Virus record (IMG/VR): IMGVR_UViG_3300035670_001000
Span: 1 to 29,022 of that record
Source of the DNA: a virus
Direction: 5' to 3' (one strand)
DNA: 29,022 nucleotides
The notes under the pieces are model-generated. The model was not told the DNA's origin. It worked only from the letters and a program-made list of their open reading frames with translations, and made no database searches. The position numbers and the translations under genes were made by a program. How positions within the stretch are numbered: the stretch's first letter is position 1; the number at the start of each line of letters is the position of its first letter. Positions 2,672-27,193 of the stretch are shown here, in pieces.

Positions 2672-3025
2672 TTATCGGTTCGGTGTAGGGCGGTCAAGCA
2701 TTGCTAGTAGCTCTGCCCAAACTTTGGCGGGGAGGACAGCGTACCAGTCGTCCACGTTTTCTGATCCACGCCGTTTGACGATGACGGCTCCTGTCCATGC
2801 ACGGGCGTTGGCCATCTCGACTTCGAGTTCACGCAGGTAGCCAGGTAGGTCTATCTTCTTTTCGGCTTTCACTTCCACGCAAACACCTGGCATCCCGTCG
2901 ATGTCGCCACGGTCATCAGTCCACCCGGCACGACTCCGCTCAGCATGAACCCAGCCGAATGTGCGCAGCCATTTGGCTACGAGCAGTTCGGCACGGTTGC
3001 CTTTGCGTTTATTTGGATGAGCCAC
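2672..3025 (-). CDS. Holliday-junction-resolvase-like PD-(D/E)XK nuclease
   Basis: The core begins at NKRKGNRAELLVAKWLRTFG, the typical first helix with its catalytic Glu (residue 13). It continues with DDRGDIDG (Asp 41) and VCVEVKAEKK (Glu 51, Lys 53), matching the E...D...ExK order of archaeal Hjc-like and related phage resolvases. At about 117 residues it has the usual size. Such enzymes cut branched DNA before packaging, or act with a RecB-like exonuclease such as the one encoded next. The start is uncertain. GTG 3025 gives the family-like N-terminus and a 17-base overlap with the WhiB gene. ATG 3100 would add 25 residues unlike the family and lacks a ribosome binding site. Confidence 0.75.
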   Translation of the reverse strand: MAHPNKRKGNRAELLVAKWLRTFGWVHAERSRAGWTDDRGDIDGMPGVCVEVKAEKKIDLPGYLRELEVEMANARAWTGAVIVKRRGSENVDDWYAVLPAKVWAELLAMLDRPTPNR

Positions 3026-3305
3026 GAAGCCTAATTCTACGACGCCGTTCACGACGCCGTTCAGTGGTTGTGAGTCCACCCCACACGCCGATCTCTTCAT
3101 GCTCGATGGCGAACTCTAGACAGTGGATGCGCACCGGGCAACGAACACAGTATGACTTCGCTTCAATGACGAGCCGTCGCACACCTTCTTCAAAGAACAG
3201 GTCGCCTGATACGCCGTAGCAGACTGCTTCGTCGTACCACTTCGGGAGTCGTCCGATGAATACGTTGTCTTCGTTGTTCCAGTTAGCGATTGGTTCGTCG
3301 GTCAT
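3009..3305 (-). CDS. WhiB-family Fe-S transcriptional regulator
   Basis: This 98-residue protein carries all WhiB hallmarks in order. There is a first cysteine (AVCYG, about residue 29) followed by DLFF, then the CVRCPVRIHC cluster with cysteines 53, 56 and 62, the turn GVWGG at 73-77, and a very basic C-terminal helix (TERRRERRRRIRLR) for DNA contact. WhiB proteins bind a [4Fe-4S] cluster and usually act with the primary sigma factor. Phage copies can alter host or phage transcription. WhiB is confined to Actinobacteria and their phages, so this gene is the best host clue here. I chose ATG 3305, which has GGAG a few bases upstream; the in-frame start at 3353 would lengthen the overlap with the upstream gene. 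Its tail overlaps the resolvase gene. Confidence 0.93.
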   Translation of the reverse strand: MTDEPIANWNNEDNVFIGRLPKWYDEAVCYGVSGDLFFEEGVRRLVIEAKSYCVRCPVRIHCLEFAIEHEEIGVWGGLTTTERRRERRRRIRLRGSSK

Positions 3306-3525
3306 GACGCTCCAATGCACGTTTGATTCGGTCGTTGTATTGCGATTGCACATGCTGGCTGTACCAGCGCACCAGAATCACGACACCGCCGACAATGGTT
3401 GCTGCGAAGAACAGCCATTCGAGAATGTGGTAGTTGCCGTTTCTATCGTCGGGCATGAACGCCCACATCAGTATCCATCCTGCGAGTAGCGGTGCTACCA
3501 CAACTATCTTTTCCATTGGTTTCAT
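3283..3525 (-). CDS. Two-span membrane protein (80 aa), possible holin or accessory
   Basis: There are two clear hydrophobic segments: IVVVAPLLAGWILMWAF at about residues 7-23 and WLFFAATIVGGVVILV at about 37-53. They are joined by a short polar loop, DDRNGNY, and followed by a strongly charged tail, QSQYNDRIKRALERHDRRTNR. Size and topology fit class II holins, and the gene lies directly after the secreted transglycosylase-like gene. However, two other holin candidates exist upstream (6498-6692 and 5679-5927), so a role in lysis is only an inference. The ribosome binding site AAGGAGG before ATG 3525 is one of the strongest in the window. The end overlaps the WhiB gene by 23 bases. Confidence 0.72.
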   Translation of the reverse strand: MKPMEKIVVVAPLLAGWILMWAFMPDDRNGNYHILEWLFFAATIVGGVVILVRWYSQHVQSQYNDRIKRALERHDRRTNR

Positions 3526-13384: not shown

Positions 13385-13792
13385 CTAAGCGTACACCAAC
13401 AGTTGAAAATCCACCGTCAGATACAGGGTGTCGTTTGCATCAATGTTGGTGATGTTCGTGGCACCAGTAACAATCAGGTCTTGGACGATGCCACCCAGAG
13501 TACGGTCGGCTTCGAGAGCTGCACGAACCGACTGCGCACCGTCATAGGCGACATACCCGTCTAGTTTGTCCTGGGCGGTACGCTCCGAGGCTCGTTGCAC
13601 CACCACCGTCACCGTAAACCTGTTGACGATGTTCCCTGCACCCATCGCCCCGTGATACGTAATCTCATCCAACGTCGCAAACGCAAACGGTGGGTTCACC
13701 TGGTCAGGCTGATAGTCGTAGGCCCGTAACCCTGGGATTGTTTGGATGGCTGTTTTGATGCCGTCTTTGATTTGGCTTGGGGTGGCGGTCAT
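13385..13792 (-). CDS. Tail terminator / tail completion protein (135 aa)
   Basis: The sequence IKDGIKTAIQTIPGLRAYDY at the N-terminus, then PPFAFATLDEITYHGAMGAG, VNRFTVTVVVQRASERTAQD, and RAALEADRTLGGIVQDLIVT follow the layout of tail terminator proteins of siphoviruses (lambda U / HK97 gp10-neighbour class). These cap the tail tube and join it to the head. The size and the position between the connector and tail tube genes agree. The start overlaps the previous stop as ATGA. Confidence 0.8.
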   Translation of the reverse strand: MTATPSQIKDGIKTAIQTIPGLRAYDYQPDQVNPPFAFATLDEITYHGAMGAGNIVNRFTVTVVVQRASERTAQDKLDGYVAYDGAQSVRAALEADRTLGGIVQDLIVTGATNITNIDANDTLYLTVDFQLLVYA

Positions 13793-14415
13793 GCAAACAT
13801 CCGCATCCGACGATACGGCTCAACCAACTGAGCCATGTCAGGGTCAAGGAATCGAGAGACACGAATAGCACCCAGATCACCGAAGCCGGCTACGCCGAGC
13901 GGCGAATCGTAACGCTTGAAGATGCGTGACGACTGGATGATGCAAGCCTGCGTTATCGGGTCAGGTACCGCAGCCCAACCCCACTTCGCTGTCACCTGCA
14001 CCAACGCCTGCTCACCATAGTTCGCATTCACGGTCGGGAACAGATAGTCGCCGATGGCACGAATCTTGTCATAGGACCACGTAAGGCCATCGAGCACACC
14101 GTTCAACGGCTCCAACTGGTAGTCGGTGGTTTGCCACGTGACATCAAAGTTTCCGTCAGCGAACGACGAAGTCTTCAACACGAAATCTGTGGTCGTATAG
14201 AAGTCGTCGCAGTCAGTCCAGTATTCGTTGTTCGCTTGGAACACGCGAGGCGTAGCAGTAGCCACAGCCCAGAACTGACGGTTGCAATATCCGTCAATGA
14301 GACGTGATGCGGCACCAACACAGTTCTCAATCAGCGTGTCATCAGCCGTGTCGGCAGTGCCGATCCGCAAAGCTGCTTTGACTTGATTGAGTGTGGCGTA
14401 GCCGTTTGTAATCAT
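13789..14415 (-). CDS. Head-tail connector protein (gp6-like adaptor, 208 aa)
   Basis: The N-terminal region, YATLNQVKAALRIG followed by DDTLIENCVGAASRLIDGYC and NRQF, is the classic HK97 gp6-like connector motif. A beta-rich insertion follows (TDFVLKTSSFADGNFDVTWQ), then QVTAKWGWAAVPDPITQACI and the RIFKRYDSPLGVAGFGDLGA segment near the C-terminus. The protein forms a ring below the portal. A separate head-tail stopper gene is not evident nearby. GGAG about eight bases upstream and an ATGA overlap with the HNH gene define the start. The connector normally follows the capsid gene directly; here it is separated by about 5 kb of sugar-modification genes and an endonuclease. Confidence 0.86.
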   Translation of the reverse strand: MITNGYATLNQVKAALRIGTADTADDTLIENCVGAASRLIDGYCNRQFWAVATATPRVFQANNEYWTDCDDFYTTTDFVLKTSSFADGNFDVTWQTTDYQLEPLNGVLDGLTWSYDKIRAIGDYLFPTVNANYGEQALVQVTAKWGWAAVPDPITQACIIQSSRIFKRYDSPLGVAGFGDLGAIRVSRFLDPDMAQLVEPYRRMRMFA

Positions 14416-14912
14416 TCCTGAATCTCCGACAATTTGAGCAGTTGCTGTTCTCCTACATTAGTGCCTTTGCGACGGTTGCATCTCCTACAAGACAATGCAA
14501 TATTTGATGGGTCAGACGACCCACCCCGTGAAACGGGAATCAGATGATCCAATTCTGCATTTTTCAGAGATATATTTTGAGCGCACATATAGCACTTTCC
14601 GCCATCTCTCTCATAGATTTCGTATCGTCTGGCGATAGAGACAGTTCGAGTACGCGCACGATGTTTGGCCGTATGATCCATTGATTTACAGGTTTTGCTG
14701 CAATATATTGCGTGAAATTTGCGTTCTTGCAAAGAGCCAGAACATCTACGACATTTACCCATATTGATCATCCTGCGCACCTTGCGTTTGTTTTGATTCG
14801 TATATGAGCAAAAGTAAGAACAAGCCATATGACTTGGCCTAATTTGTGTAAATATTGAGTCGCAAATAAGGCATTTAGCAGTTTTTCCGCGATGCCACTT
14901 CTCAATTGTCAC
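14412..14912 (-). CDS. HNH homing-type endonuclease with N-terminal zinc motifs
   Basis: The C-terminal 65 residues carry the HNH core: CYMCAQ, then AELDHLIPVSRGGSSDPSNI and ALSCRRCNRRKG, with the two CxxC pairs that bind structural zinc and the DH catalytic dyad. The N-terminal 80 residues contain further cysteine pairs (CLICDSIF, CRRCSGSL, CSKTC), which probably form DNA-binding zinc ribbons. This is a free-standing endonuclease of the homing type common in phages. Base composition is visibly richer in A and T than the flanking genes, supporting recent insertion. It starts with GTG 14912, four bases after the methyltransferase stop, with only a weak ribosome binding site. Confidence 0.88.
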   Translation of the reverse strand: MTIEKWHRGKTAKCLICDSIFTQIRPSHMACSYFCSYTNQNKRKVRRMINMGKCRRCSGSLQERKFHAIYCSKTCKSMDHTAKHRARTRTVSIARRYEIYERDGGKCYMCAQNISLKNAELDHLIPVSRGGSSDPSNIALSCRRCNRRKGTNVGEQQLLKLSEIQE

Positions 14913-14916
14913 CGTT

Positions 14917-15597
14917 TTATGCTACCCCACCCGATTTGCCGATAAGCCACTGATTGCCAACAACCTCAACCTGCGCACCAACCGACTCAGCAAACCTGTA
15001 GACATCGGTACGAACCGCATCCCACCCCAAGTCGTCACCCATCAGCACACCACCCGCAGCCAACAAACGCCACGCCGCAGACAACTCCAAAAACGTCTCA
15101 TCGGCCTCATGCGCCGAATCCACATACACCACCTCCGGGCGAACATCCAACACCCGTTCCAGCAACCTCATCCCCACAATCGCCGAAGCACAAATCGGGG
15201 TAATCACATCAGCAAACCCAGCCAACTTCACATTCGCCAGGAACCGTTGCCGAATCGTCGGAGCACCATTCTCCAACGCCAGAAACCGCCACTTCCCTTC
15301 ACGCACCAACTCCTGCTCCCACACCCACATGTTGACATCGCCAGTGAACGGATCAATACAAACGATGTCCAAGTCGTGACCCAACTGTTTCGCCGTGGAA
15401 GCAACCACCAACGCCGACCCACCCAACATCGACCCCACCTCAACCCAAAACTTTGGGGAACGCTCCCTCAACACACGCTTCACCAAATCGGCAGTCAGAT
15501 TCGTATGCGGATACCCGTTATCAGACGGACCGTAATCCGCGTACACATCCTGCGAACCAAACAACGTCGCCCGCAACTTGCTCGTCAACACACCCAT
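14917..15597 (-). CDS. Class I SAM-dependent methyltransferase (Methyltransf_24-like)
   Basis: The 226-residue protein has the SAM-binding glycine motif FWVEVGSMLGGSALVVA (about residues 50-66). An acidic end of beta strand 2 follows (DIVCIDPFTGD), and then EVVYVDSAHEADETFLELSA and AAGGVLMGDDLGWDAV. This spacing, and the DSAHE segment in particular, are typical of Methyltransf_24/cephalosporin-hydroxylase-like enzymes, several of which O-methylate sugars or sit in polysaccharide clusters. It is the last of six genes in the sugar-modification cassette. ATG 15597 overlaps the previous stop as TGATG, so it is preferred over the start at 15627. The methyl acceptor is unknown; a glycan attached by the neighbouring transferases is the simplest guess. 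Confidence 0.8.
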   Translation of the reverse strand: MGVLTSKLRATLFGSQDVYADYGPSDNGYPHTNLTADLVKRVLRERSPKFWVEVGSMLGGSALVVASTAKQLGHDLDIVCIDPFTGDVNMWVWEQELVREGKWRFLALENGAPTIRQRFLANVKLAGFADVITPICASAIVGMRLLERVLDVRPEVVYVDSAHEADETFLELSAAWRLLAAGGVLMGDDLGWDAVRTDVYRFAESVGAQVEVVGNQWLIGKSGGVA

Positions 15598-16271
15598 CAG
15601 CCGACATCCCTCAACCGGGCAGGCCACTCCGACCCACGAATCACCCGACCAGCCTTCACATCCTCAAAGAACCGACGCACCTCAGCAACAGCCGCATCAT
15701 CAGGATGCCACGACACCTGCTCCTCATCCTCAAAATGAAACATCTTCGCACGCTTATCAAAATGAACCTCAGCACCCCACACCCGCAACTCCAACCAACC
15801 AATCCAATCCCGCCACTTGTGGCACCTCTCAGGCACCTCCCTCAACACAGCCATCCGAGTTGCCCTGAACCCAGGCATATGATTCCCTGTCTGCAACATC
15901 GCATCCCACTCAACCGTGTTCGCATGACACTCACCTGAAGCATGACGACACGACACATGCACAGCATCACCCCTCAACTCCAACCCAACCAAAAAATCTG
16001 GGTCCAGCCGCTCATCAACACCAATCAGCATCACCCACTCAGATTCGACATGCTCCAACGCCTTATCAAACGCAGGCCACACCCGCTCATCCCAGAACGG
16101 CACCACCGTCCACCAATCAGGGAACTCTGCCTCAACATCGGTAACAAGAATCAGTTTCGCTGGGCGAGGATTCATAGCCTCAGCCATCTGCGTGAACGAC
16201 GCACCAAACTTGTCCCAATAGCGCTGATTGCACGCCGAATAGATACTGATTCGGTCGTCAACCGCAATCAT
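15597..16271 (-). CDS. GT-A-like glycosyltransferase (divergent GT2 fold)
   Basis: The sequence begins ISIYSACNQRYWDKFGASFT, resembling the start of GT-A enzymes, and continues with KLILVTDVEAEFPDWW. It then has DKALEHVESEWVMLIGVDER (a strand leading to the acidic VDERLDPD in the place of a DxD), and later PGFRATRMAVLREVPE and WIGWLELRVWGAEVHFD. Together these fit a nucleotide-sugar transferase with reduced or divergent metal motif. Absence of a canonical DxD leaves open that it is a non-catalytic relative. Start and stop overlap both neighbours as TGATG. It is flanked by two methyltransferases. Confidence 0.62.
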   Translation of the reverse strand: MIAVDDRISIYSACNQRYWDKFGASFTQMAEAMNPRPAKLILVTDVEAEFPDWWTVVPFWDERVWPAFDKALEHVESEWVMLIGVDERLDPDFLVGLELRGDAVHVSCRHASGECHANTVEWDAMLQTGNHMPGFRATRMAVLREVPERCHKWRDWIGWLELRVWGAEVHFDKRAKMFHFEDEEQVSWHPDDAAVAEVRRFFEDVKAGRVIRGSEWPARLRDVG

Positions 16272-16786
16272 CAGCGCGTCTTGAAAACGAAGATGTGACT
16301 CAACTCGGCAGGCTGATCCTCAATATGCAACAGCTCACAACCAGCGAACATCTCCAACACATCGTTCACCGTGAAATCATGCAGGTGATGTTCGTTCATG
16401 TGTTTCGTCGGACGGGTAGGAACCGAACACACCACCAACCGTGAAGCCTTCGCCAACTCCTTAGCCAACCGGACAGGGTTCTGCACATGCTCCAAAGTCT
16501 CAAACGTAATCGTCACATCCCACGCTTCATCAGCAACCCACTCATCCAAATTGACACCACCCAGAAACCTGCCATGCGCAGCAAACGTCCCTGAAGACTG
16601 AATCTTGTCAATCCCCAAATAGTCAACCTTCTTTGTCTCAGCAATCACCTCAGCCCCGTAGCCGATACCGCACGCCACGTCATACACCTTCTCACCCTCG
16701 ACAAGCCACCCGGCAGCCAACTGGTAGCGGTAGATGTGGCCGTCCCAGCCACGCCAAGAATCCTCGGGGATGCGCTCAATAGTCAT
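16271..16786 (-). CDS. Class I SAM-dependent methyltransferase (Methyltransf_11-like)
   Basis: A short methyltransferase of 171 residues. Motif I is KVYDVACGIGYGAEVIA (about residues 33-49), an acidic strand 2 is YLGIDKI, and motif II/III is WDVTITFETLEHVQNPVRLA, followed by RLVVCSVPT. The sequence up to the SAM site (YRYQLAAGWLVEG) is typical of sugar or small-molecule methyltransferases next to glycosyltransferase genes. It lies between two glycosyltransferase genes and is tightly coupled to the next (TGATG), so it likely modifies the same glycan. Substrate specificity cannot be read from sequence. ATG 16786 is nine bases after the upstream stop. Confidence 0.83.
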   Translation of the reverse strand: MTIERIPEDSWRGWDGHIYRYQLAAGWLVEGEKVYDVACGIGYGAEVIAETKKVDYLGIDKIQSSGTFAAHGRFLGGVNLDEWVADEAWDVTITFETLEHVQNPVRLAKELAKASRLVVCSVPTRPTKHMNEHHLHDFTVNDVLEMFAGCELLHIEDQPAELSHIFVFKTR

Positions 16787-16795
16787 TCAAAGAAC

Positions 16796-17398
16796 CTACC
16801 AGCGGTGACGCATACCGAGCGTCGACCCATGACCAACATGATAAATCCACGTCACCGCAGGACTGTTCACAAACTTCGCCCCAGCCGCAGCACACTTCCT
16901 CACAAAATGAAAGTCGTAGCCAATCCGATTGTTCTCCGAATCCACCACATACGAATCCGCATCAAACCCGCCAGCGAAACCGCCAACCTCCTCCCACAAA
17001 GACCGACGCATCAGAAACACGTTCGTAATCTGTCTGGGATGATTGTTGTCAAACGGCACCCCACGCCACCTCTCCAAATGGCCGCCATCCCCACACGACG
17101 AATACGCGAAATGAGTGAACGCCAAATCTGCCGAGTTGTCCTCAACCAGCGACCACAACGTCTCCAAATGATGAGGCAGCCACTCATCGTCATCGTCCAG
17201 GGTGGCTACCCATTCCATTGTGGAGCCACGCACAGCAGAATCTAATGTTGCTGGACCGCCACGCCTATTGTGATCCACGCTGATGATGTGCTCCTCGGGT
17301 CGCATCGTCTGAGCCTGCACCGAACGCACAGCCCTCGACAGCAACTCCCCACGAGGAGGAATCGTCGGAGTACACACCGACACAGGAATCAGTCCCAC
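16796..17398 (-). CDS. Glycosyltransferase family 2 (GT-A fold)
   Basis: The N-terminal half is canonical GT2: PVSVCTPTIPPRGELLSRAV, QAQTMRPEEHIISVD, and the metal- and nucleotide-sugar-binding WVATLDDDDEW at about residues 63-73. Later, VFLMRRSLWEEVGGFAGGFD and GYDFHFVRKCAAAGAKFV correspond to the acceptor region with its ED/YD motif. About 200 residues is short but complete for a cytoplasmic GT2 without membrane anchor. It should add one sugar to a protein or growing oligosaccharide. I chose GTG 17398, which overlaps the upstream stop, over ATG 17428, which would overlap by 40 bases. The exact start remains uncertain. Confidence 0.85.
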   Translation of the reverse strand: MGLIPVSVCTPTIPPRGELLSRAVRSVQAQTMRPEEHIISVDHNRRGGPATLDSAVRGSTMEWVATLDDDDEWLPHHLETLWSLVEDNSADLAFTHFAYSSCGDGGHLERWRGVPFDNNHPRQITNVFLMRRSLWEEVGGFAGGFDADSYVVDSENNRIGYDFHFVRKCAAAGAKFVNSPAVTWIYHVGHGSTLGMRHRW

Positions 17399-18039
17399 GA
17401 CAAATCCAGCCTTCTCTGCAAATCCCAATCCAACGCAACGTCACCAGTCATGCGTTGCTCAAACAGTATTCGGTTTGCATCAAACGTCGCCTGATTCAAC
17501 TGCTTGAACTTGTCCGACGAATTGAGCGTGGACGAGTTCCGATGGAAGATAGGTGCAGTCGAATACTGGATGTCTACACCTTTGCGTTGCGCACGAATCT
17601 GATAGTCGTTGTCCTCAAAATATGCAGGATGGAAACCTTCACAGAACAACCCGACCTTCTTCACCACCTCAGCACCCAGCCAGAAACATGCCCACGGTGG
17701 TTTCCCACCCAACACCAGATTCTCTGGTGTGGCCTGCATGAAGAACTCTTCCACACCGTTCGCACCGAACCCGATGTCATGATTCACAATCATCCACCCG
17801 CTCGACTTGCATGTCGCTTTGATACCGAGATTCCATGACGCAGCCACACCAAGGTTCGTTGGCATCCGATAGTGGTAGATGTTCCGAGCCTTGTCCGTGT
17901 ACGGCATCCACCTCGGATGGTTGCCGTTATCAATCACCACCAGGTCGCCAATGAACCCGTCAAACGACGCAAGCATCCTGTCCACCCGATCATGCTCGGT
18001 GAGCACCGGCACGATTACGACTGGGACGAACGGCACCAC
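17389..18039 (-). CDS. Glycosyltransferase family 2, rhamnosyltransferase-like
   Basis: Motifs in order are VIVPVLTEHDRVDRMLASFD, DLVVIDNG, the MPTNLGVAASWNLGIKAT block typical of rhamnosyl-type GT2 enzymes, then GWMIVNHDIGFG with its acidic ND/HD pair. Near the C-terminus is GFHPAYFEDNDYQIRAQRKG, carrying the ED catalytic-base motif. It should transfer a sugar from a nucleotide donor. AAGGAG about eight bases upstream supports GTG 18039 as the start. The longer frame (TTG 18069) would overlap the upstream gene by 55 bases. Adjacent GT genes suggest sequential addition of sugars. Confidence 0.86.
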   Translation of the reverse strand: MVPFVPVVIVPVLTEHDRVDRMLASFDGFIGDLVVIDNGNHPRWMPYTDKARNIYHYRMPTNLGVAASWNLGIKATCKSSGWMIVNHDIGFGANGVEEFFMQATPENLVLGGKPPWACFWLGAEVVKKVGLFCEGFHPAYFEDNDYQIRAQRKGVDIQYSTAPIFHRNSSTLNSSDKFKQLNQATFDANRILFEQRMTGDVALDWDLQRRLDLSWD

Positions 18040-19316
18040 GCAGCAATCTCCTTCATCGCAGGCTTCCAATACTGGTCGTACACAACATCGGCGTCGTACT
18101 GCTTAGCAAAATCCACAGCCTTCTTTGACGGCCCGCGAGGAGCGTTGTACGCCTCCTCCAAAGCGTTCAAAATGCTTGCCACATTCGGCGTAAAGAAGAA
18201 CGCGCCCTGTAGCGGGTCCCACCACGGCTGACCCTCAACAATCCAACCATCCCCAACCAACTCAGGCTGAGCCGTGAAATTAGAAACAATCACACGAGTC
18301 CCGCACGCCTGAGCCTCCACCACAGGAATACCGAACCCTTCACCCATCGACGCAGCCAACAGAACGTCAGCATCGCTGTATAGGGCCGCCATAGCGTTGT
18401 GAGGAAGCCCAATGCGGTACAGGTAAGGGTCCACCCATTTGATGCGCTCTGGCGCTATCCCAACGGCTGTGGCGAGGGCTGTGAGATTGATACCACCCAT
18501 CGACTGGGTCGCCTCACTGTGCATATACAGAACCGCATCAGGATGCTTCGCAGCAAACATGCTGAACGCCATAAAGTTCTCAGCGAACGCCTTACGGCTC
18601 GGAGAAACACCCTTATTCGCCGCAGTCATCATCACCACAAACTTGTCCTTCTCAAACCCCATGATGTCCCGACCAGTCAACACCTGATTCGCACTATCAC
18701 GCACCGAAGGAGTCGGCTTGAATATCGGCTCAATACCGTGGGGCACATACAAGCTGCGAACATTCGCCTGGTCAAACTCATTCTTCCCAAACTTCGACAT
18801 CGCAATCGGCATCACATTCGAACGCACACACCACTTCAACACATCCGGCGGACACGGCGCATGATCCACAGGAACCCACGACGCAATATTTGGCACCTTC
18901 TCCAGATTCGGAGCCTGCAACACCCACACATCAAACAACGTCATCAACAACTTCGGCAACGTGCTCGCCTGAGTCCACTCCATCCAATGCGCAACAAGCA
19001 CATCATCGCTATACGGATTCAATCCTCTCGGATAAATCTTTATCCCATTCCACGTAGATGTCGAACCCTCAAGTCCGTACATTGCGTGAATCGCTACTTC
19101 GTGCCCTTCTTTGATGAGCCTTTGGACCGCTTGCTGGGTTTGCTGACCGTAGCCCGTTCCCGCCCACGGCGCGTTGGAGTACCAGAGCGCCCTGACTGCG
19201 TCCGAGGTTCTACGACTGACTCCTCCCACAAGTGAGCCACGCCCCGCTGCAAGAGCAGGGTCGCCTCCAACTCCGGCAAGTCCACTGGAACGTTCTTTAT
19301 CACTACTCGCATTCAC
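18015..19316 (-). CDS. Glycosyltransferase family 4 (GT-B fold)
   Basis: This 433-residue protein with two Rossmann-like halves begins its N-domain with VRALWYSNAPWAGTGYGQQT, the donor- or acceptor-site glycine motif of GT4 enzymes. The C-domain carries VDPYLYRIGLPHNAMAALYS and the diagnostic GEGFGIPVVEAQACGT (about residues 325-340), whose Glu residues hold the nucleotide sugar. It lacks membrane segments. The first 40 residues (Ser/Gly-rich, ending SRRTSDA) look disordered. The gene opens the sugar cassette, directly after the terminator that follows the capsid gene, with AGGAGG five bases before GTG 19316. It may transfer the first sugar to a virion protein or build on a host glycolipid. 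Confidence 0.88.
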   Translation of the reverse strand: MNASSDKERSSGLAGVGGDPALAAGRGSLVGGVSRRTSDAVRALWYSNAPWAGTGYGQQTQQAVQRLIKEGHEVAIHAMYGLEGSTSTWNGIKIYPRGLNPYSDDVLVAHWMEWTQASTLPKLLMTLFDVWVLQAPNLEKVPNIASWVPVDHAPCPPDVLKWCVRSNVMPIAMSKFGKNEFDQANVRSLYVPHGIEPIFKPTPSVRDSANQVLTGRDIMGFEKDKFVVMMTAANKGVSPSRKAFAENFMAFSMFAAKHPDAVLYMHSEATQSMGGINLTALATAVGIAPERIKWVDPYLYRIGLPHNAMAALYSDADVLLAASMGEGFGIPVVEAQACGTRVIVSNFTAQPELVGDGWIVEGQPWWDPLQGAFFFTPNVASILNALEEAYNAPRGPSKKAVDFAKQYDADVVYDQYWKPAMKEIAAWCRSSQS

Positions 19317-19354
19317 GAAACCCTCCTATGCAGGTCAACTCAAACTCTAGCCTA

Positions 19355-19403
19355 CAAAAGTCAAAGCGGCCCGACACCACCCTGCGTGTGGGTGCCGGAC
19401 CGC
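19355..19403 (-). terminator. Rho-independent terminator after the major capsid gene
   Basis: On the coding strand a 13-base-pair stem (GCGGTCCGGCACC with GGTGTCGGGCCGC, two G-U pairs) encloses a 12-base loop and is followed by TTTGACTTTTG. It lies about 45 bases past the capsid stop and 40 before the first glycosyltransferase gene. Partial termination here would lower expression of the downstream cassette relative to the capsid protein. Confidence 0.85.
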
Positions 19404-19446
19404 TCGACTTATGAGTCCCCATCAAGGGACTTCATCTACAGCGTTA

Positions 19447-21484: not shown

Positions 21485-22570
21485 CTATTTGTCCAGAAAC
21501 AAATCAGTCATCCGACGCAACACATTCAGATACGCCACCCGACCCTCAGCCTCTTTCACCTTCTCCGCCTGACGTTCAAACCAGCGCAACGCAGGCGACG
21601 GATCAAGCGGATCAATACCCCACAAATAGAACGCCACCGCACCAGCACCAGGAAACTCATCATTGTTGGCGTTGCTATTCTTCGGAGCTTCCAGGTCTAC
21701 CAGGTGTCGTGCTCCCCAAGCGTTTGCACGAACGACCTTATCCTCGCTAATTCTTCCCGCAGCCATCTCACGGGCCTCACGAACAGTTCGAGCCACAAGA
21801 CCATCACCAGCGAGACCCTGCCCGTAATAGTCCAAACCTTTCCGTGCTGCTTGACGGATGTACACCGGCACATCGAATGACAGTTGACGGTCGTACACGT
21901 TCGGCCAGTTGTAAACATCCTCATCGTTGACATCTCCGCTCTGAACTTCCTGCCCAGGGTTCGCATTCGGTGAACCCTCAACCGACTCCCACCTGTTGCA
22001 ATAGTACGCAGGCGAAACCTGCGCATCCCACAAACGACAATATGTCCGCTCGTAGTAGCCGCAGTTCCCACAGTTATGATTCGCAGGCACATCCGCCGTT
22101 GACGCAGGACGATAGTTGTCAGGCAACGCCCTATCTTCCATCTCGTCATCAGGTTCTTCCAACTCGCCGATACGAGTCAACGTCGAGAACTTGTGACCGA
22201 CAATCACATCAGTGTCTTCCCAACCACCCTCAACTTTTTGATACACCTGAATCAAGGCCACCGGGTCATCCTCGGAGGCTTCCAACTCGAAGTCGGTACC
22301 TGGCACCCGCACCGTACCCGAACGGAAGATTTCCTGAATCTCACCACGCGCACGACCACCCGAACTATTCCACGAAACATAATCACCAACCTCCAACGCA
22401 TCAGGCAACGCCCGCTCACCACCAGGCTCAATACCCTCAGCGACAGACACCGCCACCATCTGATCTATCGCATCCTGCTTCGACCCATGACAACCAATCA
22501 CTTCACCATCATCCTTGACTGTCGCCCAACCAGCGCAATCAGGAGAAGCATCAGTGACGAAATACGGCAT
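21485..22570 (-). CDS. Multidomain head-region protein with HVA1/Tudor-like and four-cysteine modules
   Basis: The N-terminal 50 residues (YFVTDASPDCAGWATVKDDG followed by EVIGCHGS) match a module found at the start of several phage capsid-associated proteins. Residues 57-135 resemble the HVA1/hypervirulence-associated Tudor-like domain: LEVGDYVSWNSSGGRARGEI, then the VTV-type strands and DTDVIVGHKFSTLTRI. Residues 164-195 hold four cysteines (NCGNC, YCRLW, YYCNRW), a possible small metal or Fe-S site. The last 130 residues (YIRQAARKGLDYYGQGLAGD, VVRANAWGARHLVDL, GAVAFYLWGIDP) resemble a helical module often seen in phage head gene clusters. Start coupling is TGATG. It may be an internal head or morphogenesis factor; its actual function is not known. 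Confidence 0.68.
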   Translation of the reverse strand: MPYFVTDASPDCAGWATVKDDGEVIGCHGSKQDAIDQMVAVSVAEGIEPGGERALPDALEVGDYVSWNSSGGRARGEIQEIFRSGTVRVPGTDFELEASEDDPVALIQVYQKVEGGWEDTDVIVGHKFSTLTRIGELEEPDDEMEDRALPDNYRPASTADVPANHNCGNCGYYERTYCRLWDAQVSPAYYCNRWESVEGSPNANPGQEVQSGDVNDEDVYNWPNVYDRQLSFDVPVYIRQAARKGLDYYGQGLAGDGLVARTVREAREMAAGRISEDKVVRANAWGARHLVDLEAPKNSNANNDEFPGAGAVAFYLWGIDPLDPSPALRWFERQAEKVKEAEGRVAYLNVLRRMTDLFLDK

Positions 22571-22833
22571 CAGAGCGTCTGCTGCAAATACGAAAGAACA
22601 TGACCTTCTTTGGTTGACACCGCATACAGACGATCACCCTGACTCAACGTGATAGTGATACGTTCCTGCTTCAACAAAGCCAAACCGTTACTCGTCGTAA
22701 CAGCAGCACCACCCAAATACATCGTGTCCGTGTTGTCATTGTTTGCAACATGAATCACAATCGGATTACTTGACGAACCATTGATTTGCGTAGCGGCCGT
22801 ACCAACCGAAACCGTGCCAGAAGAAATACTCAT
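22570..22833 (-). CDS. Small beta-sandwich virion protein (87 aa)
   Basis: The whole chain is beta-like: VSVGTAATQINGSSSNPIVI, VANNDNTDTMYLGGAAVTTS, GLALLKQERITITLSQGDRL and YAVSTKEGHVLSYLQ. The TMYLGGxxVTTSNGxxL core is common in short surface or decoration proteins of actinobacterial and marine phages. It is coupled to both neighbours by ATGA and TGATG overlaps and lies among head genes. It is probably displayed on the capsid or on a head fibre, perhaps together with the repeat protein encoded just before. No enzymatic motif is visible. Confidence 0.65.
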   Translation of the reverse strand: MSISSGTVSVGTAATQINGSSSNPIVIHVANNDNTDTMYLGGAAVTTSNGLALLKQERITITLSQGDRLYAVSTKEGHVLSYLQQTL

Positions 22834-24503
22834 AGCATCAACAATACTTGCAAGTCATCTTCTTCACCTGAGAACGTAATCTCCGCCTGAGCAGACGCAC
22901 CCAAACGACCCAACGAAACACCACCCCGACCCGACACCACACTCGGCACAAACTCAGACACAACCTCAACAACAGACTCAGAAACAACAGCCTTGACCTT
23001 CTGCTTCCTGCGACGCGGCACCAGATACGGATTCGGAGCACCACCACCCTGCACCGGCGTAACATCACCAACCGTCGCACGCGCAACCAACGCACCCAAC
23101 GCAGCCGACCCAGTCGCCGTATGAGACACCAACGCCACAGCCGACGCAGCAACCCCACCCAACGCAGCCGACGCAGACGAATCATCAGCAACCTGCGCTG
23201 AAGCCGACGCAGACAAACCACCCAACGGTGCATCAGCAGAAGCCAGATGGAGAATTGTCGCCGACGCTGACGAAACCAGCCCACCCAACTCCGCCACCAA
23301 CACAGCGAACTCGGTAACACTCGCTGTCGCAGACGCAGACAACCCGCCAAGCTGCGCCGAAGCAGATGCGCCCTCAATCACATCAGCCGAAGCCGACGCA
23401 ACCAACCCACCCAACGGAGCATCCAACACCGCAAACTCCGTAACATTCGCCGACGCTGATCCACTCAACCCACCGAGCGCAGCAGTAGCCGACGCCACAT
23501 GCGTCACCGTCGCCGAAGCCGACGCAGACACCCCACCCAACGGAGCATCAGCAACAGCCAACACAGTCGGCACAACCACCGCAGACGCAGACGCCGACAA
23601 CCCACCCAACGCCGCGTCAGCATCAGCCAGGTGAGTCACCGTCGCCGAAGCACTCGACGCCAAACCACCCAACGGTGCAGCCAACGTCGCCGAAACAATA
23701 TTCACCACCTGCGCCGAAGCCGACGCACTCAACGCACCCAACGCAGCCGACCCAGTCGCAAGATGCTTCACCGTCGCCGACACCGATGTCGTGATACCAC
23801 CCAACGCCGCAGCAGCAGTTGCCGTCACCGGCGCATCAGCAAACGAAAACTCGAAATAGACAGAACTACCTTGAGCAGGCGCAATACCACCTGTTGGAGT
23901 TACCGCAGCAACATTCGCCGACGCACTCTGACGATACGTTTGAAACCCTGCGTCAGTACCAGTCGTGGTCGTCGCAACAGTACCCACCGTGTAACCAGAA
24001 GCAGCAGTCGGAAATGTTGTGTTGTCGGCCTTCGACATAAACACAATCGCCAAACGATTTCCACCAGACACCGTGATCGCAGGCAACTCAGGGTTCGCCA
24101 ACGCAGACAACGCAGTCTGCGCAAACTCATCAAACGGATTACCAGTAGTGATTGCACCACGAATCACATACGCCCGACCAGCCCAACACGTATCCGTACC
24201 CGTATCCCAGCTCGCTGGACGAGTAATCGTTACCGTAGAACCAAGCGAAGCATTAGATGTTGCACGCGCCCACCAACACGCATGCTCTTCATCAATCGGG
24301 TTACCAGCAGTGACGTTCGGAGAGTTCTTCGTCCACGGCGAAGCCAACGACTGCGTGTTCGTACCAGTCGTAGTATTCGGAACCCAACCAACCGTATTGA
24401 TGACAACGATGTCATTCGTGTCATATGCAGGCAGCGTAATAACAAGGTTGCCGGTCGTAACGGCAGCAATATCACCTTGCGCTTGAAGTGTTGGAGCGGC
24501 CAT
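22830..24503 (-). CDS. Repeat-rich virion surface protein (jelly-roll head plus 12 tandem ALGGLSASASA repeats)
   Basis: Residues 1-230 form a beta-rich domain with GNLVITLPAYDTNDIVVINT, ARATSNASLGSTVTITRP, YVIRGAITTGNPFDEF and GGNRLAIVFMSKAD. This resembles jelly-roll modules of phage and extracellular adhesion proteins. Residues 231-486 are twelve head-to-tail repeats of 21 residues (two of 23), consensus DAPLGGLSASASATVTHLAS, so regular that a fibrous or beta-solenoid rod is likely. The last 70 residues are basic then Val/Glu-rich and include one worn repeat near RGGVSLGRLGASAQA. There is no signal peptide. Placed between portal and protease genes, it is probably a head or neck fibre rather than a tail fibre. 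Repeats may change copy number by recombination. Confidence 0.75.
   Translation of the reverse strand: MAAPTLQAQGDIAAVTTGNLVITLPAYDTNDIVVINTVGWVPNTTTGTNTQSLASPWTKNSPNVTAGNPIDEEHACWWARATSNASLGSTVTITRPASWDTGTDTCWAGRAYVIRGAITTGNPFDEFAQTALSALANPELPAITVSGGNRLAIVFMSKADNTTFPTAASGYTVGTVATTTTGTDAGFQTYRQSASANVAAVTPTGGIAPAQGSSVYFEFSFADAPVTATAAAALGGITTSVSATVKHLATGSAALGALSASASAQVVNIVSATLAAPLGGLASSASATVTHLADADAALGGLSASASAVVVPTVLAVADAPLGGVSASASATVTHVASATAALGGLSGSASANVTEFAVLDAPLGGLVASASADVIEGASASAQLGGLSASATASVTEFAVLVAELGGLVSSASATILHLASADAPLGGLSASASAQVADDSSASAALGGVAASAVALVSHTATGSAALGALVARATVGDVTPVQGGGAPNPYLVPRRRKQKVKAVVSESVVEVVSEFVPSVVSGRGGVSLGRLGASAQAEITFSGEEDDLQVLLML
23046..23813 (-). repeat. In-frame tandem repeat array, 12 units of 63-69 bp
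   Basis: The coding strand contains twelve consecutive units of 63 bases, two of them 69, each encoding a variant of xAxLGGLSASASAxVxxxxx. Length is always a multiple of three, so the frame is kept. Units differ at many synonymous and nonsynonymous sites, so the array is old rather than freshly duplicated. Units sharing the ending TEFAVL (two copies) or HLA (three copies) suggest partial higher-order duplication. Confidence 0.9.
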
Positions 24504-26647: not shown

Positions 26648-27193
26648 CTAGGCACACCTGCGAGCCCGAAACTCAACCATCAATGAATCCTGCTTTGATG
26701 AATTGCAAGTACCGCACAGGGATTGCAGATTGCCGATTGAATGCCGACCGCCTCGATTTAGAGGAACTATGTGATCCAAAGTCAGATTCTTTTGAGAGCC
26801 ACAAACCGCACATTCCTTGGATTTGAGTCGCCTAATCTCCTTCGGCAGAATGTCGTAGACCCCGTTTTGACGCTTCAGTGCTCGGCGTTTGTGATGTTGA
26901 AGTTTTCTCCTATCGGGATTATTGCGAGCCCAAGCCCTGGCCCTACTGCTTGCTACTTCCCGATTTTTTTCTGCCCACATCCTGGATCTCTGCCTATCCG
27001 GTTCGGGATTCGACAAACGAACAGCACGAATCTTTGACTTTGCGTATTCAGAATTATTTTTGTACCAACGCTGTGAACGTCCTCGTGTACAAGATTTGCA
27101 TTCGTAGGCGTGGCCGTCTTTTGCGTCAATGCGTTTATGGAAATCAGAAAGAGTTTTTACTTCTTTGCATTTTTTGCATGTCTTGCTGGTCAT
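26648..27193 (-). CDS. HNH homing-type endonuclease (181 aa)
   Basis: The N-terminus is a zinc-ribbon, CKKCKEVKTLSDFHKR...YECKSC, typical of phage HNH proteins. A long basic helical linker follows (RSQRWYKNNSEYAKSKIRAV and on), then the C-terminal HNH core CAVCGSQKNLTLDHIVPLNR, GGRHSIGNLQSLCGTCNSSK. The DH and N residues of the HNH motif and both CxxC pairs are present, so it should be active. It is coupled to the large terminase stop (ATGA) and is more A/T-rich than the flanks, both suggesting a mobile element inserted without damaging its neighbours. HNH proteins next to terminase genes can also help cos cleavage; that alternative remains open. Confidence 0.88.
   Translation of the reverse strand: MTSKTCKKCKEVKTLSDFHKRIDAKDGHAYECKSCTRGRSQRWYKNNSEYAKSKIRAVRLSNPEPDRQRSRMWAEKNREVASSRARAWARNNPDRRKLQHHKRRALKRQNGVYDILPKEIRRLKSKECAVCGSQKNLTLDHIVPLNRGGRHSIGNLQSLCGTCNSSKQDSLMVEFRARRCA

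Follow-up and report, generated by a model that had tools for sequence, protein, structure and literature searches.

A capsid-linked glycosyltransferase and methyltransferase cassette with a constant core and variable distal genes: a putative virion-glycosylation locus in a siphovirus-like phage

What would six consecutive genes for sugar- and methyl-transferring enzymes do between the capsid gene and the connector gene of a phage? The question is raised by IMG/VR virus record IMGVR_UViG_3300035670_001000, of which positions 1 to 29,022, a stretch of 29,022 bases, were analysed and are called the window below. Judged from its gene content, the window belongs to a siphovirus-like phage; because it carries a WhiB gene at 3009–3353, its host is probably an actinobacterium. 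The window showed no DNA similarity to known phages. Its nearest named relative is the Pontimonas phage phiPsal1, found with Pontimonas salivibrio (Microbacteriaceae), and one related contig was binned in a metagenome-assembled genome (MAG) of the Microbacteriaceae. At 14917–19316, all on the minus strand, six open reading frames (ORFs) encode a GT4 glycosyltransferase (GT), two GT2-family enzymes, a methyltransferase, a GT-A enzyme and another methyltransferase. The block lies between the genes for the major capsid protein (MCP) and a gp6-like connector, with an HNH gene coming next after it (Table 1). With a probability of roughly 0.6, it is read as a cassette by which the phage glycosylates its own virion, its first genes being constant and its later ones variable. 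The reasons for preferring virion decoration are that the leading enzymes are conserved and co-inherited with the capsid gene, that all the enzymes appear soluble, that searches revealed neither a flippase nor a DNA-base gene, and that Che8, a phage with reported virion glycosylation, has a locus of similar make-up.

Enzymes of the cassette

An earlier note, made from the letters of the window, had placed six genes of these types at 14917–19316. This was confirmed by Pfam and PHROG matches and, for the fifth gene, by structure prediction. The location between capsid gene and connector was equally borne out, by PF05065 on one flank and PF05135/phrog_442 on the other. Neighbouring genes overlap or are separated by about 10 bases at most, in agreement with the consecutive order described before; start positions were picked by alignment with relatives, which makes the overlaps tighter than the longest ORFs imply.

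The motifs DNG, NLG and FxDNDY are invariant in GT2a, the second gene. The likely start of GT2b, the third, is a GTG at 17398 overlapping the GT2a stop, and relatives at 67–82% were found in loci L047, L048, L006 and L009. MT1, the first methyltransferase, is 80% identical in L047 and L048, where it also adjoins GT2b. The fifth gene product had no match in Pfam, PHROG or NCBIfam. Its AlphaFold2 model (pLDDT 90) gave the fucosyltransferase WrtF as best Foldseek match (E 3e-9), followed by TarS and SpsA (to 4e-8), and by this model the protein is predicted to be a glycosyltransferase of GT-A/GT2 fold, as had been guessed. For MT2, the second methyltransferase (model pLDDT 78), the best PDB match was MeT1, a mycobacterial sugar methyltransferase of methylmannose polysaccharide synthesis, then SpnH and MycF; catechol-type and tRNA enzymes score about like the sugar methyltransferases SpnH and MycF. 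On its model, MT2 is sugar-methyltransferase-like.

No convincing membrane segment was detected in the six proteins, in which hydrophobic peaks are single short stretches, and all the enzymes appear soluble. Family searches of the window and cassette proteins recognised no flippase, lipid-linked GT or sugar-nucleotide gene, and the window gave no Pfam match to the hallmarks of serotype conversion (gtr), the membrane flippase GtrA and membrane-bound GtrB/GtrC. An N-terminal extension of about 40 residues (GGDPALAAGR...) in GT4 is common to the clade of the window and absent from phiPsal1 and the Microcystis phage Mae-JY09; it is possibly a docking tail.

Such enzymes might also glycosylate or methylate hypermodified phage bases and so evade restriction, and DNA protection is one published suggestion for the glycosyltransferases of freshwater actinophages (PMC10202952). 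The thymidylate-synthase/dCMP-hydroxymethylase family was found in 0 of 18 records (the window, which is possibly incomplete, phiPsal1 and 16 related records). The cassette lies among virion genes, and its enzymes match glycan families rather than DNA-modifying ones. As the supporting gene was not found in these records, DNA hypermodification was rejected and is held to be very improbable.

Capsid-linked core and variable end

Loci were fetched from IMG/VR with GT4 and MCP queries and compared by tblastn; GT4 has 207 relatives in IMG/VR. The capsid gene is immediately followed by GT4 in 131 of the 142 distinct loci having enough sequence, a set biased toward GT4-bearing loci in so far as part of it was fetched by GT4; in the loci fetched through MCP alone (L128–L207), the adjacency was likewise found in the large majority. 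The exceptions are nine empty slots, with 153–174 bp between capsid gene and connector, and two loci with a GT2 only. The window shares the features of the phiPsal1-type lineage: GT4 right behind MCP, GT2a in the cassette, a gp6-like connector next and WhiB. Distances between proteins correlate at 0.92 for MCP and GT4, 0.91 for MCP and connector and 0.94 for GT4 and connector, and more weakly for GT2a (0.82). GT4 thus behaves as the core structural genes do and appears to be inherited vertically together with the MCP gene.

In a quick MCP tree with midpoint root, the empty loci occupy two or more positions among the GT4-bearing phages and look like at least two separate losses. The block had been described as inserted into a siphovirus head operon. 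For the lineage of the window this was rejected, because GT4 is co-inherited with the capsid gene and the empty slots are nested among GT4-bearing phages; the slot is conserved, and the same order is deposited for phiPsal1. No GT2- or GT4-family match occurs anywhere on six empty-slot records. Most empty-slot or GT2-only records (L156, L178, L184, L192, L194 and L206) also have no WhiB match, and L190 has one with an internal stop; the WhiB-less records may be fragments or phages of other hosts.

Past the second gene the picture changes. Eighteen types of distal gene set were counted in 60 intervals, with a simple longest-ORF caller by which single counts may be off. Between pairs of loci with capsid proteins at least 95% identical, the distal set differs in 63% and has no family in common in 40%. 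Nucleotide similarity between the window and its relatives extends to the GT2a stop codon and resumes at the connector start, with patches in between where a module is common. GT2a mostly terminates in TGGGATTGA, and the start of the next gene overlaps the stop there, whichever gene comes next. Everything behind GT2a is a hypervariable slot: hundreds of relatives retain GT4 and GT2a and exchange the remaining genes almost freely.

The distal set of the window is a mosaic of modules found in other loci: GT2b with MT1 in L047 and L048, the GT-A enzyme in L015, L017, L022, L024 and L046, and MT2 in L012, L026 and others. The pool across relatives comprises GT2, GT17, GT-A, methyltransferases, a 2OG-Fe(II) oxygenase and an MptE-like protein. 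The oxygenase occurs in some cassettes (L006, 3154–3912; L011; L067) and suggests hydroxylation or oxidation of acceptor or sugar. An additional GT2-family match outside the cassette was seen at 21948–22292 on the record of L037 (G003).

At the right border, the HNH gene named before as following the block is present, as a peculiarity of the window: it is absent from the other 60 of 61 compared intervals and was rejected as a constant component. Its stretch is GC-poor (0.48), and the gene is a probable late arrival of homing type. In 38 of 61 loci, and whatever gene comes before, the connector start is preceded at about 10–15 bases by a GTAGGATTGA-type box (e.g. L005, 10204; L024, 9313), possibly a ribosome site or a −10 promoter box. 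The window has no GTAGGATTGA box; the HNH gene occupies that place.

Homologues of GT4 also neighbour capsid genes that are far more divergent, on MAG contigs with the labels Actinomycetota, Steroidobacteraceae, Pirellulales (Planctomycetota) and Chloroflexi (Chloroflexota), bin labels being no proof of host. In the Pirellulales-binned case, a contig of 318 kb, MCP is followed by GT4, two ORFs and the connector.

A variable end might also track the surfaces of hosts. The enzymes would then place methylated sugars on the host cell-wall glycan late in infection and block re-adsorption of progeny or superinfection. Surface glycans of aquatic actinobacteria do vary (Pontimonas has 28 glycosyltransferases and much horizontal transfer; PMC6106888), methylated sugars fit actinobacterial envelopes, and superinfection control is another published suggestion for the glycosyltransferases of freshwater actinophages (PMC10202952). 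Nevertheless, the cassette proteins appear soluble, with neither flippase nor lipid-linked GT recognised; the conserved enzymes are the first two, where a variable host acceptor would lead one to expect the reverse; and the place behind the capsid gene is retained even in phages binned with other phyla. Host-surface modification is therefore judged unlikely, and decoration of the virion is preferred.

RNA element and other features of the window

Between the capsid gene and GT4 the window carries a gap that folds to −36.5 kcal/mol (z −5.2), and most of its close relatives carry the same hairpin element. A hairpin of 12–16 bp surrounds the nearly invariant loop ACGCAGGG (57 sequences; e.g. L005, L025, L037 and L127). 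Stem sequences are very different between clades, yet 324 of 324 cells are paired in 27 distinct stems, compared with a fraction of 0.65 when the arms are shuffled. The stems are the best hairpin per sequence, which inflates the pair count, and the shuffled-flank control was given equal freedom; the stem score was 28 against 7 in that control. Pairs were counted by script on the per-sequence hairpins, the MAFFT alignment being off register between loop types.

Downstream of the hairpin and before the ribosome site of GT4, the window has GACCTGC, which is complementary to the loop. The loop complement (CCTGCG in most) stands just ahead of the GT4 ribosome site with 5–7 paired bases in 54 of 57 sequences, whereas shuffling the downstream sequence leaves such pairing in about 18%. 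A compensated change, a GTGCAG loop with a CTGCAC complement, is seen in one clade, and two sister sequences have lost the complement. Loop and complement form a candidate pseudoknot. In a database-wide pattern scan, among the matches listed, the structured form is confined to the MCP–GT4 gap or to contig ends next to one of these two genes, and the remaining matches have no hairpin. No Rfam family matched the element of the window at gathering score, and local hits were weak and sub-threshold.

The terminator that had been noted ahead of the block is thus a strong, real hairpin, but part of a conserved RNA element. Ordinary U-tract terminators occur at this spot in other clades and in empty loci, and a simple terminator scan did no better than shuffles (10 against 7.5). 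A plain intrinsic terminator was kept only in part, because many relatives lack the U-tract yet conserve stem pairing and loop. The element is likely a regulatory leader or a modified terminator, and a candidate for a new, strongly covarying phage RNA motif unlisted in Rfam.

On the minus strand the genes run terminase, HNH/endonuclease VII, portal, prohead protease, MCP, the six-gene block, HNH, gp6-like connector, tail terminator, tail tube and tape measure. The HNH/endonuclease VII gene between terminase and portal, the second of its kind, lies at 26648–27193. A 557-aa protein between portal and protease (22830–24503) has no PHROG or Pfam match and is conserved at 35–47% among otherwise close relatives. 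A 361-aa protein (21485–22570), upstream of the S78 protease, combines a phrog_80 protease-like N-terminus with a TUDOR-like domain (PF11160).

Table 1. Positions of the cassette genes, the RNA element and neighbouring features in the window.
Feature	Position	Strand	Evidence
Major capsid protein (MCP), HK97 fold, 392 aa	19447–20625	minus	PF05065 1e-56, phrog_10 5e-67; 49% identical to phiPsal1 MCP
Capsid–GT4 intergenic RNA element, 130 bases	19317–19446; hairpin about 19361–19404	minus	fold z, stem covariation
GT4 glycosyltransferase, 433 aa, GTG start	18015–19316	minus	PF00534 2e-12, phrog_2170 2e-35; EX7E motif (E326, E334)
GT2a, GT2-family glycosyltransferase, conserved second gene	17389–18069, likely start near 18036–18039	minus	phrog_29879 6e-36
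GT2b, GT2-family glycosyltransferase, variable slot	16796–17428	minus	PF00535 1.2e-9; DDDD motif
MT1, class I SAM methyltransferase, variable slot	16271–16786	minus	PF13489 1.5e-8
Predicted GT-A/GT2-fold glycosyltransferase, fifth gene, variable slot	15597–16271	minus	structure prediction
MT2, SAM O-methyltransferase, sugar-OMT-like, variable slot	14917–15627, likely ATG start 15597	minus	PF13578 1.8e-12 (Methyltransf_24), RMNT_CmcI 1e-4
HNH endonuclease	14412–14912	minus	PF14279 4e-14
gp6-like head-tail connector, right border of slot	13789–14415	minus	PF05135 1.6e-5, phrog_442 9e-18
WhiB gene	3009–3353	minus	PF02467 2.6e-18

Proposed function and known systems

In the proposed scheme, the chain would be started in the cytoplasm by GT4 and then GT2a, which would draw on nucleotide sugars of the host and attach the first sugar residues to an acceptor that stays constant. 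The acceptor would most likely be the MCP, encoded just upstream, with the tail tube as second choice. GT2b, MT1, the GT-A enzyme and MT2 would lengthen and O-methylate the chain in the phage of the window. By exchanging distal genes, closely related phages would come to bear different glycans on similar capsids, and the hairpin or pseudoknot between capsid gene and GT4 probably holds expression of the cassette below that of the capsid.

Phages with and without the block were compared, as the earlier note had proposed. Residues retained where GT4 is present and changed where the slot is empty were looked for in MCP, tail tube, connector, tail terminator and portal. T163 of the MCP and T88 of the tail tube seemed promising at first and were rejected, since both vary in GT4-bearing phages too. 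Several results weigh against virion glycosylation as proposed here. No residue in these five proteins cleanly separates cassette-bearing from empty phages. GT4 correlates with the connector (0.94) as well as with the MCP, so linkage alone accounts for part of the signal. The glycosyltransferases of the window have no detectable homology to those of Che8: no BLAST match of Che8 gp108–110 better than E 0.2 was found in the cassettes, and gp110 scored an hhalign probability of 0.1 against the GT-A family. Homology to the Che8 enzymes, sought by both methods, was rejected.

The missing capsid-specific glycosite signal would suit a tail fibre or another minor virion protein as acceptor, the tail fibres lying outside the five proteins compared. 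Yet the cassette stays beside the capsid gene although tail genes are close, and such an acceptor is considered improbable. Virion decoration by a multi-step methylated glycan, as first put forward, thus fits the soluble enzymes, the co-inheritance with the capsid, the matches of MT2, the lack of DNA-modification genes and the Che8 precedent, with MCP or another virion protein as its putative acceptor.

If the proposal is true, a large group of aquatic actinophages, which meets no antibodies, would have virion glycosylation as a permanent trait, and the glycan itself would be the fastest to diversify. The role of a capsid glycan in nature would become testable, because nature offers relatives with an empty slot as well as many types of cassette. 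Virion decoration would also join DNA protection and superinfection control (PMC10202952) among the suggested roles of freshwater actinophage glycosyltransferases. As far as the literature consulted shows, what is new is the organisation into constant core and variable end, how widely it is spread, and the RNA element; the architecture and GT annotation already exist for phiPsal1.

The genome of phiPsal1 (MG835450), whose host is in the Microbacteriaceae, was deposited with GT annotation that its paper leaves undiscussed (PMC6106888). Like the window, it has MCP, GT4 (46% identical), a GT2a homologue (38%), a gp6-like neck protein, a methyltransferase in the cassette and a WhiB gene. Its cassette is shorter (MCP, GT4, methyltransferase, GT2, neck), with the methyltransferase on the opposite strand, and in its nearest relatives (L128–L131) MCP is followed by a usual U-tract terminator where the window has the invariant-loop RNA.

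For a few mycobacteriophages there are reports that phage enzymes glycosylate the virion, the effect described being on antibodies; such reports name the capsid and tail tube in the virions of Che8, Corndog and Myrna (PMC12363180, PMC12619734). Che8 gp108 is a fusion of GT2 and Methyltransf_24/TylF, followed by GT2, GT25 and HNH; the window likewise combines glycosyltransferases, a Methyltransf_24 methyltransferase and HNH. In Che8, unlike in the window, the gp108–110 locus lies at the right end of the genome, has no GT4, and the capsid gene is followed straight by the adaptor (gp6–gp7, about 11 bp). The best reading, by analogy, is that the cassette is functionally like the Che8 locus, with enzymes not detectably homologous.

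Synechococcus phage S-CBS4, known from annotation, has within its head-gene cluster (gp014–017) an annotated GT, a GT2a-like galactosyltransferase (33% over 62%), a methyltransferase and HNH, but between portal and head protease rather than behind MCP. An HNH gene thus lies behind the GT locus in Che8 and S-CBS4 as well, and that of the window may help cassettes move. Mae-JY09 has a GT4 homologue (39–42%) between MCP and head-tail adaptor; one gene parts it from MCP, and its companions include an NAD-dependent epimerase.

In behaviour, though not in membership, the cassette resembles the hypervariable O-antigen and surface-glycan loci of bacteria, in which sugar enzymes are exchanged within fixed borders. 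It differs in being phage-borne and in having only apparently soluble enzymes, with neither polymerase nor flippase. Tentatively, and with less confidence than is given to virion glycosylation itself, it may be regarded as a phage counterpart of bacterial serotype loci, in which a constant, capsid-linked core and a freely exchanged slot would let otherwise near-identical virions differ in their methylated glycans, while a new phage RNA pseudoknot would couple expression to the capsid message.

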